From Sneathiellales bacterium (GTDB lineage Bacteria > Pseudomonadota > Alphaproteobacteria > Minwuiales > Minwuiaceae), in assembly GCA_026992315.1 (NCBI GenBank), contig JALXAG010000281.1:1-32279 (forward strand): a stretch of 32,279 bases of DNA, in the 5' to 3' direction. This document shows, piece after piece, positions 23,980 to 30,936 of the stretch. The translations under genes and the position numbers were made by a program. The notes beneath the pieces were generated by a model that ran no database searches, was not told the origin of the DNA, and worked only from the letters and a program-made list of their open reading frames with translations. Numbering within the stretch: position 1 is the stretch's first letter; each line of letters begins with the position of its first letter.

Positions 23980-25383
23980 ATGTTTTTTGTACGACGATGG
24001 CAGGGCTGCGTCTGTTGTCTGTTGTTTGCCCTTTCGTTTTTTCCGGTGGACCCGGTAACGGTCTTTGCACAAACGCCGGCGGCTGCAGGCAGGGATGAAG
24101 CGGCGGGAGAAGGTGAAGAAGCCTTGCGGCGCAAGCGCCAGTCGATCTACCGCGCGCTGCTGAAAAAACCCGCCGATCTGGACCTTAATTTCGCCTATGC
24201 CGCCCTGTCCGCCCGCCTGGGCGATTACGAAGGGGCGATCACGGCGCTGGAGCGTATGCTGATCTTTGCCCCCGATCTGCCCAGGGTGAAGCTGGAACTG
24301 GGGGTGATGTATTTCCGCCTGGGGTCCTTCGTCGTGGCGCAGTCGTATTTCCTCGATGCCCTGGAGGCGGAGGATGTGCCCAAAACGGTTGCGGAGCGGG
24401 TGAAGAAATATCTGGCGGCGATCGACAAGCAGTTGTCGCGGCACAAATTCACCGGCACGGCCTTTCTCGGACTGCGATACCAGAGCAATGCCAATGGCGC
24501 CCCTTCGGATGCGGATATCGATATCAAGGGAACGACCTTCCGTCTGGATGACAGCGCAACGGCCCAATCGGATATCGGCGTCACCGGTTTCGTGCGCGGG
24601 CAGTACAGCTATGATTTCTTCAATCAGGGCGACAAGATCGAAATAGACGGCATTCTGTTCATGTCGGGGCAGAAAAGCGAGGAACAGCTCAATTCCCGCA
24701 TCATTGAATTGCGTGGTGGCCTTTCCTTCGATCTGGCCAAACGCGACTGGGGGGTCGGAAGGGTCAAGCCTTATCTGTTGCTGGGCCATGTTTCGCTTGA
24801 TGAAAACGGCTATTCGCGGACCTTTGGTCTGGGCGGGGTGGTGGACAAGGAGTTATCGGCGCGCTGGTATCTTTCCGGGCGGGGGGAAATCCGTAACCTT
24901 CATTATAACAATACAGCAGCCAATCCCACGCTCAGCAGCCGTAATGGCAATGAATACGCGCTGTCTGCGACCTTTATCTACCGCCCCCCTCTCGACTGGG
25001 GGCGCCTGAAGACACCGGTTCTTTCCCTGCTCGGCGGTGCGGAACGCCGGCAGGCAGATCAGGATTTCCAGTCCCGGACCATCTGGCGGGCGAATGTCGC
25101 GCTCAACGGCCGTTTCGATTTGCGCGACCGGGGGATCGAGCGCCCCTGGGATCTGTCGTTTCTCGGATCTTTCCGCAACAGTTCCTATGACGCGCCGGAT
25201 ACGACCCTCAGCACCAGCGATCGCGAGGATCGCGAATGGCTGTTCCGGGCCACGCTGGGCGTGCCGGTCCGCGACGATCTGTCGGTGCTGTTTGTCTATC
25301 AGCTACGCGATACCCGCTCGAATTACGATATTTACGATTATACGGACCATTCCGTCACCATCGGTCTGGCCTGGCAATTTTGA
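23980..25383 (+). CDS. Slam-like protein: N-terminal TPR region plus outer membrane beta-barrel
   Basis: Probable outer membrane secretion factor of about 467 residues. A signal peptide (MFFVRRWQGCVCCLLFALSFFPVDPVTVFAQ) leads to a periplasmic helical region with TPR-like repeats (LDLNFAYAALSARLGDYEGAITALERMLIFAPDLPRVKLELGVMYFRLGSFVVAQSYFLDAL). About 300 residues of amphipathic strands follow, ending DHSVTIGLAWQF with a terminal Phe. This order and length match the Slam family (DUF560/PF04575), which delivers TbpB-type proteins across the outer membrane. The start is uncertain: ATG 23980 begins the signal peptide best, GTG 23974 has GATGGG six bases upstream, and ATG 23926 is the longest. The partner gene starts 13 bases after its stop. 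Confidence 0.78.
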   Translation: MFFVRRWQGCVCCLLFALSFFPVDPVTVFAQTPAAAGRDEAAGEGEEALRRKRQSIYRALLKKPADLDLNFAYAALSARLGDYEGAITALERMLIFAPDLPRVKLELGVMYFRLGSFVVAQSYFLDALEAEDVPKTVAERVKKYLAAIDKQLSRHKFTGTAFLGLRYQSNANGAPSDADIDIKGTTFRLDDSATAQSDIGVTGFVRGQYSYDFFNQGDKIEIDGILFMSGQKSEEQLNSRIIELRGGLSFDLAKRDWGVGRVKPYLLLGHVSLDENGYSRTFGLGGVVDKELSARWYLSGRGEIRNLHYNNTAANPTLSSRNGNEYALSATFIYRPPLDWGRLKTPVLSLLGGAERRQADQDFQSRTIWRANVALNGRFDLRDRGIERPWDLSFLGSFRNSSYDAPDTTLSTSDREDREWLFRATLGVPVRDDLSVLFVYQLRDTRSNYDIYDYTDHSVTIGLAWQF

Positions 25384-25396
25384 AACGAGGCATGAC

Positions 25397-28159
25397 ATGA
25401 CCATGCAGGCATTCAGAAAACCGTTCGACCTTTCACTGCCGGCGTTGCTGGGCATGGCCGTTCTTGCCGTTTCTGCTTTTTCCATGCCGGCGCTTGCCGC
25501 AGGGGACGATATCGAGGTCGGCGTTGCCGCCGCGGTCAATCAGGACGCCGAATCTCAACCGCCACGGCGTCCGTTACGTCGCCTTTATCTTGGCGATAAC
25601 CTTGTTTTCAACGAAATGGTCAAGACCGGTCCGCGGGGGCTGACCCAGATCCTTTTGGCGGACCGTTCGGCCCTGACCGTCGGGTCCAATTCGACCCTGG
25701 TGATCGATAAGTTCGTTTACGATCCGGCGGCGGACAAAGGAAAAATGGCACTGTCCCTGGCCAAGGGGGTGGTGCGTTTCGTCGGTGGGGCCCTGTCCAA
25801 GAAAAGAGGGCAGGTAACGCTGAAAACCCCTTCGGCGACCATTGGCATCCGTGGCGCGGTCGTTCTGGTGCAGGTCCTGCCCGATGGGGTGCGTTTTATC
25901 ATGTCTTTCGGGCGCGAGGTGCTGGTGAACGGGCCGGATGGCACAAGGCAACGCATCACCGCACCCGGCTATGCCGTGTTCGTGCCCTTCGGCGGCAGCC
26001 CGCAGCAGCCGGAACCGGTGACCCAGGACGAAATCTCGATGATCCAGGCACGCCTGGCCGGACGTCTGGATGCCAGTGGCGGCAGCGACACCCCCCCTTC
26101 CGGCGATCAGGTCGACGGATCCGATATAGCCCGGCGAGGTTCCGGCGATATCGCCATCGACCTGAGCGGTGATGTCCCCCCGCCACCGGACGGCAGTACG
26201 GACGATGCCGTGACCGAGGACAGCCAGCGTAATGCCGTCAATGCCATTCCGGACGGCATCAGCGCCGGGCGTCTGCAGCTGAGCGGTTCAGGCTATCTGA
26301 TTGACGGATCCGGTCCGATCCTGCCCAGCGGGGCGACGACAGACAGTGCCGGCCTGCTTGGCGGCACGACGGATACCAGCGCGGAACAGGTACTGAGCAA
26401 CATCAGTTTTACCGCAACCGAGCTGACGGCAGCGCTGTCGGGTGGCGGCAGCATCACCCTGCCCTACGATGCAACGGGAACGAGTGTTACCGTTACTGCC
26501 ACCAATTCCTCTTCCCCCTTTGGCGATCTGTCCGGTCAGGGGGTTTTCTTCCGCGACAGTGCCGGGAACCTGGAATTCGCCTATTACGATCTGCGTGAAA
26601 GTTCGGATGCGCTTCCGGCATTTCTGTTTCTGGGAGATCCCTATCCGGCGGCCAGCCAGACGGCATCGCCGCGCATTCATTCCTACTCCTTGCTACCGGA
26701 TGCCGTGCAGTCGGCGGATTATGGCAACACGCTTCCCTTTGTCGCCGGTCAGGCCTTCAGCGGAGCGGTGCTGAGTTCGGGCGGGGTTTCGTCTTCCTTC
26801 TATTACATCGAACAGAATGACGGCACTATCGGCGGTTCCTCCAGCGACGGTTCGGTTTCGGCCTTTCTGCAAAGCAGCCTTTACCTTGAAGGGACCGGCA
26901 GCACGCAGAAATCTTCCCTGGCCGTGGTTCAGGGTCAGTTGAGCCGCGAGGCCGGCTTCAACACCCCGATTGCCGAAACGAACCGCCGCGGCGGCGGACG
27001 GATCGGCAATACGGATACCTTTGCCTATGACGGCGTGATCCGTACCCTCGATGACGGCGGCGGGAATACGGTTTTCGGCAACGAGAAAACCTATTTCGTG
27101 CTTTCCAACGATACGCGCAACAACGGTGCCTTCAGCGATCTGGGCATTCCCGGCGGGCTGACCACCGGCATGCGCCATGTCGCTGTCGAGGGCAGCGTGT
27201 CCGATCCGGCGCTCGCCTCGCGACCGGCCCGGACCCTGAGCGGCTTCGCGGCGGCGATGGTCGAGGGTTTCAGCTTCGTCGGTGCCTATCCGGTCAACTC
27301 GCGCTTTGGCGATGGCAGCAGCGTATCCATGACCTTTGATCCGACGAAGAACCGTTTTTCCGCCCGTTTCCAGCTTGCCGATAATTTGTCGCTTTCTGGC
27401 AGCACTGGCGGCGGCGGCACGTCGATCGGCAATTACGATTTCTATTTCGGTAACGGGCGTTCTACCTATGTCGATGACGAGCGCTACGGTGCCCGGGGCG
27501 ATACGCTGAACGATTCAACGGCCGACGGCGTCGTTATCTCCGCCGCATCTTCATCTGCTCTTTCCGACAGCGGCAGGCTGTATCTCGTTGCCGCCTCCGT
27601 CGCTCCCATCAATTCCTCCAGCACCACCATTCCCAGCGGCGTATCCCTGTGTACCTGCAGCTTCATCGAATGGGGCTGGTGGGGCGCCATGCCGACCTAC
27701 CAGTCAGGACCGAACAGCGGCCGGCAGGAAATCGTTCATATGGGTAACTGGGTTGCGGGGGATATTCCGGCGGTTGCGGATCTGCCCGCAACCGGCACGG
27801 CAAGTTACAGCGGCCACGCGGTCGGTACGGTCAGCACCGGTTCGGCGCGGTATGTGGCAATCGGCAGTTTCAGCATGAGCTATGATTTCGGCCAGCAATC
27901 GGCAACGGTCAGTATCAATGATTTCGACGGACAGAACTTGACGGCCTCGCCCACGGGCGCGACCAGCGGACCGGCTTCTTTCAGCGGTGCCGTCACCTCC
28001 AATGTCGGCAGCCGCGCCGGTACCCTGAACGGTGCGTTCGTGCGCGGGCCGAATTCGGCGGTTGACGGGGTCATCGGCGATTTCAATCTGAGCGATGGCG
28101 GCAGCTATTCGGCAACCGGCGTTTTCCTGGGTGAAAAATCCACGGGGGGATCGTTGTAA
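25397..28159 (+). CDS. Secreted FecR-domain protein with C-terminal TbpB-like beta-barrel (likely Slam cargo)
   Basis: 920 residues. A signal peptide ends near residue 35 (SMPALAAGDD) with no lipobox Cys, so the protein is probably not lipidated. Residues about 40-200 form a FecR domain (LYLGDNLVFNEMVKTGPRGLTQILLADRSALTVGSNSTLVIDKFVY, then VTLKTPSATIGIRGAVV). A Pro/Asp/Gly-rich linker and a long Ser/Gly/Thr-rich beta region follow. Cys752 and Cys754 stand just before EWGWWG (758-763), a C-x-C/Trp motif. The last 130 residues (from ATGTASYSGHAVGTV to YSATGVFLGEK) have the strand pattern and FDGQNL motif of TbpB-type barrels (PF01298). GAGG lies seven bases before the ATG at 25397, and the longer frame to 25037 is a shadow of the upstream gene. 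Confidence 0.82.
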   Translation: MTMQAFRKPFDLSLPALLGMAVLAVSAFSMPALAAGDDIEVGVAAAVNQDAESQPPRRPLRRLYLGDNLVFNEMVKTGPRGLTQILLADRSALTVGSNSTLVIDKFVYDPAADKGKMALSLAKGVVRFVGGALSKKRGQVTLKTPSATIGIRGAVVLVQVLPDGVRFIMSFGREVLVNGPDGTRQRITAPGYAVFVPFGGSPQQPEPVTQDEISMIQARLAGRLDASGGSDTPPSGDQVDGSDIARRGSGDIAIDLSGDVPPPPDGSTDDAVTEDSQRNAVNAIPDGISAGRLQLSGSGYLIDGSGPILPSGATTDSAGLLGGTTDTSAEQVLSNISFTATELTAALSGGGSITLPYDATGTSVTVTATNSSSPFGDLSGQGVFFRDSAGNLEFAYYDLRESSDALPAFLFLGDPYPAASQTASPRIHSYSLLPDAVQSADYGNTLPFVAGQAFSGAVLSSGGVSSSFYYIEQNDGTIGGSSSDGSVSAFLQSSLYLEGTGSTQKSSLAVVQGQLSREAGFNTPIAETNRRGGGRIGNTDTFAYDGVIRTLDDGGGNTVFGNEKTYFVLSNDTRNNGAFSDLGIPGGLTTGMRHVAVEGSVSDPALASRPARTLSGFAAAMVEGFSFVGAYPVNSRFGDGSSVSMTFDPTKNRFSARFQLADNLSLSGSTGGGGTSIGNYDFYFGNGRSTYVDDERYGARGDTLNDSTADGVVISAASSSALSDSGRLYLVAASVAPINSSSTTIPSGVSLCTCSFIEWGWWGAMPTYQSGPNSGRQEIVHMGNWVAGDIPAVADLPATGTASYSGHAVGTVSTGSARYVAIGSFSMSYDFGQQSATVSINDFDGQNLTASPTGATSGPASFSGAVTSNVGSRAGTLNGAFVRGPNSAVDGVIGDFNLSDGGSYSATGVFLGEKSTGGSL

Positions 28160-28254: not shown

Positions 28255-29058
28255 ATGCAGTCCAATACAGCAACAGGCGGCAACGGTGCCGGCGGAAATG
28301 GCTCCGCCCCGGAAATAGCCGTCGTCGTTCCGGCATTGAATGAACAGGAAAATGTCGTGCCGCTGGCGCGCGAGATCGTATCGGCGCTGGATGGCGTCGC
28401 CGGTTTCGAGATTATTTTCGTCGATGACGGTTCCGATGATGAAACGGTGCCTCGCCTGAAGGCTTTCGGGCGGGAAGAGCCGCGCCTGCGCATCGTCTGT
28501 CACGAACGCCGTGCCGGGCAGAGCGGGGCGATCCGCACCGGGATTCGCGCTGCCCGTGCCGGCCTGATCGCCACGCTGGATGGCGACGGACAGAACGATC
28601 CCGCCGATATCCCGGCCCTTCTGGCCCGTTATCGTGCTCTTGAAGGGCAGAATGTCGGCATGATTGCGGGCGAACGGCGCAAACGGCAGGACAATGCCCT
28701 GCGCCGCCTGTCTTCGCGCATCGCCAATGGGGTGCGTTCCTCCTTGCTGAACGACGGCGTCATGGATACGGGTTGCGGGCTGAAGCTGTTTCCCCGTTCC
28801 CTGTATCTGGATCTGCCCTATTTCGATCATCAGCATCGCTTTCTTCCCGCCCTTGTCCAGAGGCAGGGGCAGCGGGTGGTGACCGAAAAGGTCAACCACC
28901 GCCCACGCGGCGGCGGTAGGTCGAAATACGGTGTGATGAACCGGCTGTGGGTCGGCATCGTCGATATCTGCGGGGTTTTGTGGCTGAAGCGCAGGGCGCG
29001 CGGTGCCGCCGTTTCCTTTTATGAATGTGCCATGGAGGCCGACAGGGATGGGCATTGA
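28255..29058 (+). CDS. Glycosyltransferase family 2, polyprenyl-phosphate sugar synthase-like
   Basis: 267 residues with the GT2 fold: IAVVVPALNEQENV at residues 21-34, EIIFVDDGSDDET with Asp57/Asp58, and the D-x-D motif LDGDGQND (Asp109, Asp111). RPRGGGRSKYGVMNRLWVG near the C-terminus is typical of dolichyl- or polyprenyl-phosphate sugar synthases (DPM1, ArnC, RgtE types). It lacks the two C-terminal TM helices of ArnC, so it is probably peripheral; the neighbouring LABN protein could be the membrane partner. An excellent GGAGGAG precedes the ATG. It probably makes an undecaprenyl- or dodecaprenyl-phosphate sugar donor used by the GT39 two genes downstream. The identity of the sugar cannot be read. 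Confidence 0.9.
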   Translation: MQSNTATGGNGAGGNGSAPEIAVVVPALNEQENVVPLAREIVSALDGVAGFEIIFVDDGSDDETVPRLKAFGREEPRLRIVCHERRAGQSGAIRTGIRAARAGLIATLDGDGQNDPADIPALLARYRALEGQNVGMIAGERRKRQDNALRRLSSRIANGVRSSLLNDGVMDTGCGLKLFPRSLYLDLPYFDHQHRFLPALVQRQGQRVVTEKVNHRPRGGGRSKYGVMNRLWVGIVDICGVLWLKRRARGAAVSFYECAMEADRDGH

Positions 29059-29338
29059 TTTTTTCGGTCCGAAGTTCTGGCTTATCGTTGGCTTCGCCGG
29101 GCAGGCGATGTTCTCGGCGCGCTTTCTCGTGCAGTGGCTGGCCAGCGAGAAGGCCAGGCGCAGCGTCATGCCGAATGCCTTCTGGTATTTCAGCATTCTC
29201 GGCGGCAGCATCCTGCTGAGCTATGCCATCTGGCGGCAGGATCCGGTTTTCATCGTCGGCCAGGGGGCCGGCCTGTTCATCTATTTGCGTAATCTGCATC
29301 TGCTGCGCCGCGAAGCGCGCGAAAGGGCGGCATCATGA
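29048..29338 (+). CDS. Lipid A biosynthesis N-terminal (LABN) domain membrane protein
   Basis: 96 residues with about three TM segments: FWLIVGFAGQAMFSARFLVQWLASEK, then NAFWYFSILGGSILLSYAIWRQDPVFIVGQGAGLFIYLRNLHLL. This matches the LABN family (PF07578), small membrane proteins found beside GT2 and GT39 genes in lipid A or LPS core modification clusters. The ATG at 29048 overlaps the GT2 stop by 11 bases and has GGAGG nine bases upstream. Its stop overlaps the GT39 start by four bases (ATGA). It may anchor the GT2 enzyme or flip the lipid-linked sugar; this is inferred. Confidence 0.9.
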   Translation: MGIDFFGPKFWLIVGFAGQAMFSARFLVQWLASEKARRSVMPNAFWYFSILGGSILLSYAIWRQDPVFIVGQGAGLFIYLRNLHLLRREARERAAS

Positions 29339-30936
29339 TTTCCCCGAACGAAGTGAATGCCCGGCTCAACCTGTTGCTGGCCCTGGCGCTTTTTGCGGTC
29401 ATGGTGGCCGTGGGCATTTACACCCGACCGTTGCTGCCGATCGATGAAACCCGCTATCTGACCGTGGCCTGGGAGATGCATCAGAACGGCAACTGGCTGG
29501 TGCCTTTCAAGAACGGCGAAGCCTATTCCCACAAGCCGCCGCTGCTTTTCTGGTCGATCAACGCCGCCTGGGGCCTGTTCGGGGTGAGCGAGGCCGTGGC
29601 CCGCGCGATACCGCCGCTTTATGCCTTTGCCACCATGATCCTGCTGGTGCCCATGGCCCGCCTGCTGTGGCCGGAAGAGCGCGCCGTTGCCGCCAATGCG
29701 CCGCTGGTCCTGGTCGGCATGGCCATCTATACGGTTTTTGCCAGTCTGGCGATGTTCGATGCCATGCTGGCTTTTTTCGTGGTTCTGGGGCTTTATGCGG
29801 TGGCGTTGCTGTGGCGGCGGGGGCAGGCTCGTTACTGGCTTCTGTTCGCCCTGGCGCTGGGGCTGGCCGTCCTCGCCAAGGGGCCGGTGGCATTGCTGCA
29901 CATGCTGCCGGTACCTTTGTTTGCGCCTTTCTGGATGGACAGGCCGCACGGCGGCTGGGGGCGCTGGTATCTCGGTCTTCTCGGCGGCGTTTTGGGCGGT
30001 GCGGCAATCGCCCTGGCCTGGGCGCTGCCCGCTGCCGCGGCCGGGGGGGAGGAATACGGCAATGCCATTCTCTGGGGGCAGACGGCGGGGCGCGCGGTCA
30101 AGGCCTTTGCCCATGCACGCCCATGGTGGTTCTATCTGGCCCTGCTGCCGGCGATCCTGCTGCCCCTGCCGCTGCTGCCGTCTTTGTGGCGGCGCCTGCG
30201 ACCCTCTTTCGGCGGTTCCGGCGGGCGGTTCTGCCTGATCTGGCTGCTGGTGCCTTTCATCGCCCTGTCCCTGGTCAGCGGCAAGCAAATTCATTACCTG
30301 ATTCCGCTGTTTCCCGCTGTGGCCCTGATTATCGGGCGGCTGCTCGGCGGGCAGCGCAGCATCGGGCGCGGCGATGCCCTGGCCTTGGCCGGGTTGCCGC
30401 TGATTTCCGGTGTGCTGCTGTTCATCGTGCCGTGGAGCCTGCCGCTGGTGCGCGGTCTGGTGAAAAAGGGCATACCCGCATGGATCGCCGATATCGAACC
30501 CTGGGCCGGTGCGGTCAGCCTGCTGGCCGGTGTATTGCTTTATCTCGGCATGCGCAGCGGGCGGTTGCGTCCGGCATCCGGCTTTGCCTTGGGCGGGGCG
30601 GTGTTTTTTGTCATACTGCATTTTCAGGCCGCCGCCGTGGCGCTGGATCGTTTCAACCTGCTGCCGGTGGCGCAATTGTTGAAGACTTACGAGGACAAGG
30701 GCCTGGCCGTGGCCGATAACTATCATGGCCAGTTCAACTTCCTCGGCCGCCTGACAAGGCCGGTGCAGTTCGTGCCGCCGCCGGAGGTTGGCGCCTGGTT
30801 CCGCGCCCATCCCGACGGGCGGCTGGTCAGCACCAAACGGAGGGAGAGATTCGGCGATGTGCCCCTGGTGGTGGAGATGGCGCGCCCCTATCGCAGCCGC
30901 GAGATCTATGTCTACAGGCTGGCGGGGCAGAACTGA
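29335..30936 (+). CDS. Glycosyltransferase family 39, ArnT-like
   Basis: Integral membrane transferase of 533 residues that moves a sugar from a polyprenyl-phosphate carrier to lipid A or LPS core on the periplasmic side. TM1 covers about residues 11-29. The catalytic periplasmic loop follows with PIDETRYLTVAWEM (Asp37, Glu38) and AYSHKPPLLFW (residues 63-73), both ArnT/PMT hallmarks. About ten more TM segments are seen, then a C-terminal soluble part of about 100 residues. The ATG overlaps the LABN stop. Together with GT2 and LABN it forms a complete donor-synthesis-and-transfer cassette; no ArnA/B or UDP-sugar genes are in the window. Confidence 0.9.
   Translation: MISPNEVNARLNLLLALALFAVMVAVGIYTRPLLPIDETRYLTVAWEMHQNGNWLVPFKNGEAYSHKPPLLFWSINAAWGLFGVSEAVARAIPPLYAFATMILLVPMARLLWPEERAVAANAPLVLVGMAIYTVFASLAMFDAMLAFFVVLGLYAVALLWRRGQARYWLLFALALGLAVLAKGPVALLHMLPVPLFAPFWMDRPHGGWGRWYLGLLGGVLGGAAIALAWALPAAAAGGEEYGNAILWGQTAGRAVKAFAHARPWWFYLALLPAILLPLPLLPSLWRRLRPSFGGSGGRFCLIWLLVPFIALSLVSGKQIHYLIPLFPAVALIIGRLLGGQRSIGRGDALALAGLPLISGVLLFIVPWSLPLVRGLVKKGIPAWIADIEPWAGAVSLLAGVLLYLGMRSGRLRPASGFALGGAVFFVILHFQAAAVALDRFNLLPVAQLLKTYEDKGLAVADNYHGQFNFLGRLTRPVQFVPPPEVGAWFRAHPDGRLVSTKRRERFGDVPLVVEMARPYRSREIYVYRLAGQN

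Follow-up and report, generated by a model that had tools for sequence, protein, structure and literature searches.

A Slam-like outer membrane barrel protein paired with a non-lipidated FecR-TbpB-like protein in Alphaproteobacteria: a predicted secretion pair with a possible link to CHASE2 cyclases

Two open reading frames on the same strand of the window (the whole stretch of 32,279 nucleotides that was analysed) encode a predicted outer membrane barrel protein (OMP) and an exported protein, which is its predicted partner or cargo. The OMP frame has an ATG start, with GAGGGGATGGG just before it, and its last residue is Phe; 13 bases separate its end from the cargo start. The features of the pair are the following.

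23980..25383, + strand: OMP of 467 aa, TPR plus 14-strand outer membrane beta-barrel, FecR-associated Slam/SlipAM (DUF560, T11SS) branch (PF04575, AlphaFold, hhalign).
24115..24435, + strand: OMP residues 46-152, predicted periplasmic TPR domain (matched by TPR_9, TPR_2 and TPR_Slam; helical in the model).
24442..25380, + strand: OMP residues 155-467, predicted barrel of 14 strands (model strand list; terminal Phe).
25397..28159, + strand: FecR-TbpB protein of 920 aa, ATG start, exported and non-lipidated, predicted OMP partner or cargo (profiles, AlphaFold, Foldseek).
25397..25501, + strand: Sec-type signal peptide of the cargo without lipobox, residues 1-35, ...SFSMPALA-A (read from the sequence).
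25514..26047, + strand: FecR-like domain of the cargo, residues about 40-217 (PF04773; pLDDT about 95; Foldseek match to the PupR cell-surface signalling domain, 6ovk).
26264..27460, + strand: predicted first TbpB-like lobe with its connecting strands, approximately residues 290-688 (Foldseek, model strands).
27464..28138, + strand: predicted TbpB/NHBA-like lobe and barrel at the C-terminus, approximately residues 690-914, including the CxC...WGWWG motif (Foldseek, conserved columns).

The same strand carries, 3' of the pair (28255-30936), genes for a GT2 glycosyltransferase, a LAB_N protein and a PMT/ArnT-like transferase; together they resemble a set for the modification of lipid A or a glycan.

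The OMP scored above the cut-off of the SlipAM model (PF04575, 28.1 bits, cut-off 22), matching the model partially, and several TPR models also matched. Its AlphaFold model (mean pLDDT 90) has six helices (three TPRs) followed by 14 strands, in agreement with the Slam layout that the initial annotation had assigned to this gene. The terminal Phe is invariant in the OMP alignment (A1); an alignment of 10 OMP rows diverged too much to show patterns, and one of 6 closer rows was usable. PF04575 matched only 13 of 70 OMP relatives at E 0.01 (TPR_Slam matched 24 of 70), suggesting a distant branch of the family. The comparison of the 70-sequence OMP profile with a canonical profile of 11 alphaproteobacterial proteins, each matching SlipAM, was performed with hhalign and gave a probability of 100% and E 4.5e-47 over 373 columns, TPR and barrel together. 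In the tree, 12 Slam-like proteins split from the 59-row branch containing the window OMP (SH-aLRT 99). Judged by these profile comparisons, the window OMP is a Slam homologue over its full length and belongs to a distant branch, apart from the Slams with ordinary lipoprotein cargo; the possibility of an unrelated porin, which would have refuted the initial annotation, was not borne out. Slam descent rests on the profiles, because the PDB sequence search with the OMP returned TPR proteins only and the PDB fold search with its model returned no Slam entry among the top 50 matches. The best fold match was BcsC, followed by porins, with BcsC and PelB among the top matches.

The cargo signal peptide ends in ALA-A and is SPI-like by reading of the sequence. 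No Cys precedes residue 752 (C752 and C754 are the only cysteines), hence the protein is without a lipobox, as had been noted initially. A lipobox-like pattern was detected in only 3 of 80 FecR proteins of the named OMP loci described below, and none was convincingly placed. The FecR domain exceeded the cut-off of PF04773 (38.4 bits, cut-off 24). The AlphaFold model of the cargo, built with 40 sequences (mean pLDDT 81), has high confidence in the FecR domain (about 40-217) and low confidence in the linker after it; a long beta-rich region follows and ends in the C-terminal barrel (about 775-914, pLDDT about 96). Together with the Foldseek match of the FecR part to PupR (6ovk), these data uphold the FecR domain proposed at the N-terminus.

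The cargo C-terminus gave a weak, sub-threshold match to PF01298 (TbpB_B_D, E 0.32) and a match to the NCBIfam model slam_lipo (E 4e-7) below the model cut-off; slam_lipo matches 25 of 40 cargo relatives. Foldseek against the PDB aligned the TbpB-like region with TbpB and LbpB, both two-lobed, over 600-750 columns, and the C-terminal part with NHBA (6cuj, TM 0.72 by target length) and the TbpB C-lobe (5kkx, TMt 0.45-0.49); HphA (8glo), fHbp and HpuA were further matches. TbpB, LbpB, NHBA, HphA, fHbp and HpuA are known or presumed Slam cargo. The TbpB-like identity of the C-terminus is settled by the predicted fold, not by the Pfam score, and the model meets a T11SS-cargo feature, the TbpB-type eight-stranded barrel. 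The initial annotation had placed such a barrel at residues 790-920: the TbpB/NHBA-type barrel fold was confirmed by structure prediction, but the limits were too narrow, as the Foldseek alignment with two-lobed TbpB extends over about 740 columns. Its expected profile identities were obtained above the cut-offs for PF04575 and FecR, but not for PF01298. The global TM-scores of the cargo against whole TbpB were low (0.23-0.28), so the arrangement of the lobes is not settled. A single-sequence scan of the genome contigs with the cargo protein gave no match. Just before the C-terminal barrel we detected a CxC...WGWWG motif (C752, C754, W759; window 27650-27673), almost invariant in 40 FecR-TbpB proteins, which is possibly a metal site or a disulfide.

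Classical FecI/FecR/FecA signalling was considered for this locus and rejected: neither a sigma factor gene nor a TonB-dependent receptor gene is adjacent, and the cargo has no anti-sigma segment. The FecR-type anti-sigma layout is not met either, the cargo FecR domain lying directly after the signal peptide and N-terminal to 700 further exported residues.

The neighbourhood of the OMP was surveyed in an even sample of 289 genomes from the class. The OMP profile search produced 59 loci with strong matches, and the regions round the matches were scanned with home-made FecR, TbpB-C-terminus and CHASE2 profiles. A FecR gene was found at 44 of the 59 loci, 39 of these directly downstream on the same strand, a FecR protein with TbpB-like C-terminus at 14, and a CHASE2 cyclase at 27; about two thirds of the FecR partners have no detected TbpB-like barrel. 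FecR occurred at 1 of 13 weaker, Slam-like loci versus 44/59 of the OMP-branch loci (Fisher p 1e-5). The second set, 80 named loci selected because their OMP resembles that of the window and shared in part with the even sample, had a FecR gene at 71 loci (68 on the same strand within 300 nt), a TbpB-like C-terminus at 55 and a CHASE2 cyclase at 24. Shadow ORFs aside, no other gene was comparably conserved in the OMP neighbourhood. The Shinella sp. and Paracoccus aminophilus plasmids carry, as annotated, the OMP, FecR-TbpB and cyclase genes in a row. The OMP/FecR-TbpB pair is a conserved alphaproteobacterial unit, often of three genes, and recurs in other genomes, a point that the initial annotation had proposed to check.

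Three individual loci deserve description. A Stenotrophomonas terrae locus (L256), from a gammaproteobacterium, has the OMP, FecR-TbpB and CHASE2 cyclase genes together; since all three are present, transfer from Alphaproteobacteria is likely. At L073:5557-6762 (G024:C105) the FecR protein beside a Slam-like OMP ends in a Hint/intein-type domain and has no TbpB-like barrel. At L125 (G288:C1:46095-50813) a 1647-residue frame has a FecR domain followed by two successive TbpB-like-region matches, perhaps a four-lobed cargo.

The two proteins also co-occur without adjacency. The FecR-TbpB profile matched up to the C-terminal barrel in at least 21 of the 289 genomes, and all 21 are among the 54 genomes with a strong OMP (p 1e-17); the co-occurrence was counted by hand from two lists, with matches listed to about E 5e-24. 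Where OMP genes have no FecR neighbour, FecR-TbpB is mostly encoded elsewhere in the genome (G162, G275, G076, G221, G187, G194), and G275 has three FecR-TbpB genes. The window genome itself has a second OMP (contig C139), without FecR or CHASE2 neighbour; its second FecR-TbpB gene seems to be interrupted where contigs end (C161, C219). The second OMP paralogue (L057:5740-7128, L061, L065) was observed in three genomes near a beta-oxidation thiolase/hydroxyacyl-CoA dehydrogenase cluster, judged from protein N-termini. Two genomes of the window genome's family (G003, G005; loci L018, L021) lack the Slam-like OMP and encode, in open frames 5600-6900 residues long, FecR-like domain proteins that are probably giant adhesins.

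The CHASE2 adenylate/guanylate cyclase was found at about 30-45% of the OMP-branch loci. No CHASE2 cyclase lies beside the window pair, and many other OMP-FecR pairs are also without one. The window genome has three CHASE2 cyclases elsewhere, one of which, on contig C151, clusters with those that are linked (54% identity). This unlinked triad-type cyclase (L174:4128-5996, G000:C151) adjoins a GGDEF-EAL protein, placing cyclic-di-GMP and cAMP/cGMP genes side by side.

FecR and CHASE2 proteins are known as neighbours from other bacteria. In Campylobacterota, CHASE2 cyclases adjoin FecR proteins, plus a TPR protein (PMC9239204), and in Burkholderia CHASE2 histidine kinases adjoin LysM-FecR proteins (PMC5192318). 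In Sinorhizobium meliloti, cAMP synthesis by CHASE2 cyclases needs the outer membrane barrel protein NsrA, genetically shown to be the receptor for CyaK (PMC7529298, PMC13001267). Immediately upstream of cyaK, S. meliloti has a gene for a 1197-aa protein that contains FecR (66-160) and TPRs; its C-terminal region, beginning at about 600, is the span given for the NsrA barrel. We take this gene to be nsrA from the fit of length and barrel position. The candidate identity of the NsrA barrel with the OMP barrel was not supported, as the NsrA barrel gave no match to the OMP profile.

The FecR part could also act as an anchor. The FecR alignment matched PDB 5ix9, labelled antifreeze protein (E 1.5e-5), which represents the N-terminal portion of a giant adhesin that binds ice, and the NCBIfam LapA retention-module model matched 18 of 40 FecR-TbpB sequences. 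A FecR-like domain acting as an N-terminal periplasmic stop would explain, by inference, why the cargo needs no lipid. The signalling or retention role suggested for the FecR part by the initial annotation, a function that remains inferred, has independent support from the CHASE2 neighbours, the fused FecR-TPR-barrel receptor and the LapA-module and PupR matches.

We suggest, with moderate confidence, that the pair is a FecR-coupled Slam/T11SS branch, in which a TbpB-like sensor is displayed at the surface and a periplasmic FecR domain signals to a CHASE2 cyclase; the computed evidence supports the protein identities and the gene pairing well, and the export, the retention and the signalling are inferred. 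In the periplasm, the OMP would recognise its partner by the TbpB-like C-terminus and move the two TbpB-like lobes out to the cell surface. The N-terminal FecR domain would replace the lipid anchor, staying in the periplasm as plug and reporter, and would most likely report to the periplasmic CHASE2 domain of the inner-membrane adenylate/guanylate cyclase. Ligand binding or the export state outside could lead in this way to a cyclic nucleotide change inside. The absence of an adjacent CHASE2 cyclase at the window pair and the sub-threshold TbpB Pfam score stand against this reading. As many FecR partners have no TbpB-like barrel, the OMP would have to recognise something else too or have another role there. 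We know of no experiment showing export by any member of this OMP branch.

A more specific hypothesis, which we offer only tentatively, is that the translocon forms the outer half of the sensor: the TbpB-like sensor is threaded outward and the FecR domain inside reports its export or ligand state to the CHASE2 cyclase. A secretion-type exporter may have turned into a surface sensor, and, if this is true, cyclic-nucleotide signalling has been built on a type 11 secretion machine.

The OMP homology with Slam and the TbpB-like cargo fold would also be expected from ordinary type 11 secretion, where the TbpB-like part is a surface ligand-binder and FecR does no more than anchor the protein in the outer membrane, LapA-like, without signalling. 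The LapA retention-module matches, the similarity to the giant-adhesin N-terminal part and the window pair without neighbouring cyclase fit retention alone, but the cyclases adjoining the pair at 24/80 and 27/59 loci and the FecR-CHASE2 linkage known from other groups (PMC9239204, PMC5192318) are not explained by it, and we consider it unlikely without discarding it.

The S. meliloti system suggests another explanation, that the OMP is itself the surface receptor and FecR-TbpB a wholly periplasmic link to the CHASE2 cyclase, with no translocation. NsrA, which functions together with CyaK (PMC7529298), unites FecR, TPR and barrel in a single chain, and the many FecR partners without TbpB-like barrel would be compatible with such a role. 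However, the TbpB-like fold is otherwise known from Slam-presented surface proteins, and the OMP is a Slam homologue by profile, to which the NsrA barrel gave no match; this explanation appears rather improbable.

There is very little to recommend the OMP as a BcsC/PelB-type polysaccharide exporter, served by the downstream glycosyltransferase genes and with the FecR protein as a bystander: the BcsC and PelB fold matches and the GT2, LAB_N and PMT-type genes at 28255-30936 are in its favour, but the sequence profile groups the OMP with Slam, the constant neighbour is FecR and no synthase, and the OMP model has 14 strands. That the two genes are chance neighbours without joint function is practically ruled out by their adjacency at most loci and co-occurrence across genomes, and nothing was found in its favour.

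The FecR-coupled display reading has consequences beyond this locus. The cargo is unknown for most Slam/T11SS clusters, and the pair provides a conserved, recognisable cargo type, with a distinct OMP branch that spans Alphaproteobacteria and one Stenotrophomonas locus. The pair would tie Slam to FecR-CHASE2 signalling, for which the S. meliloti NsrA system leaves open how a signal gets from the surface to the cyclase. With the genes split, this route can be tested piecewise: one can ask which part lies outside, which part touches the cyclase, and whether the signal is the secretion itself.

In comparison with known systems, the pair shares with Slam/T11SS (PF04575, TPR_Slam PF24575) the TPR plus 14-strand barrel, full-length sequence homology and an adjacent partner with a TbpB-like barrel, but the window OMP belongs to a separate sequence branch, which is often linked to a CHASE2 cyclase. 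Soluble T11SS cargo is known from subcluster 1B (PMC8406197) and later surveys (PMC12282271); the N-terminal FecR domain of the window cargo is of a type absent from the roughly ten T11SS cargo architectures reported (PMC12282271), and that survey mentions neither FecR nor a cyclase. Our literature search, with subscription journals mostly outside it, found no paper linking FecR to Slam/T11SS. The FecR domain of the cargo is similar to the cell-surface signalling domain of PupR, but the cargo has no anti-sigma part, transmembrane helix or TonB-dependent transducer partner of FecR/PupR signalling. The LapA-type adhesin retention module has the same N-terminal place in an exported protein and a weak, repeated profile similarity (domain similarity only), whereas the window cargo is no type 1 secretion substrate and has no RTX C-terminus. 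In the Campylobacterota and Burkholderiales clusters a FecR protein likewise adjoins a CHASE2 sensor, but no Slam-type OMP or TbpB-like cargo has been described there. The NsrA-CyaK system of S. meliloti has the same FecR, TPR and outer membrane barrel parts beside a CHASE2 adenylate cyclase as some of the OMP/FecR loci, but NsrA is one fused protein, with a barrel not matching the Slam-like OMP model and without TbpB-like lobes; the NsrA-type gene upstream of cyaK is a fusion of parts that the window pair keeps apart.
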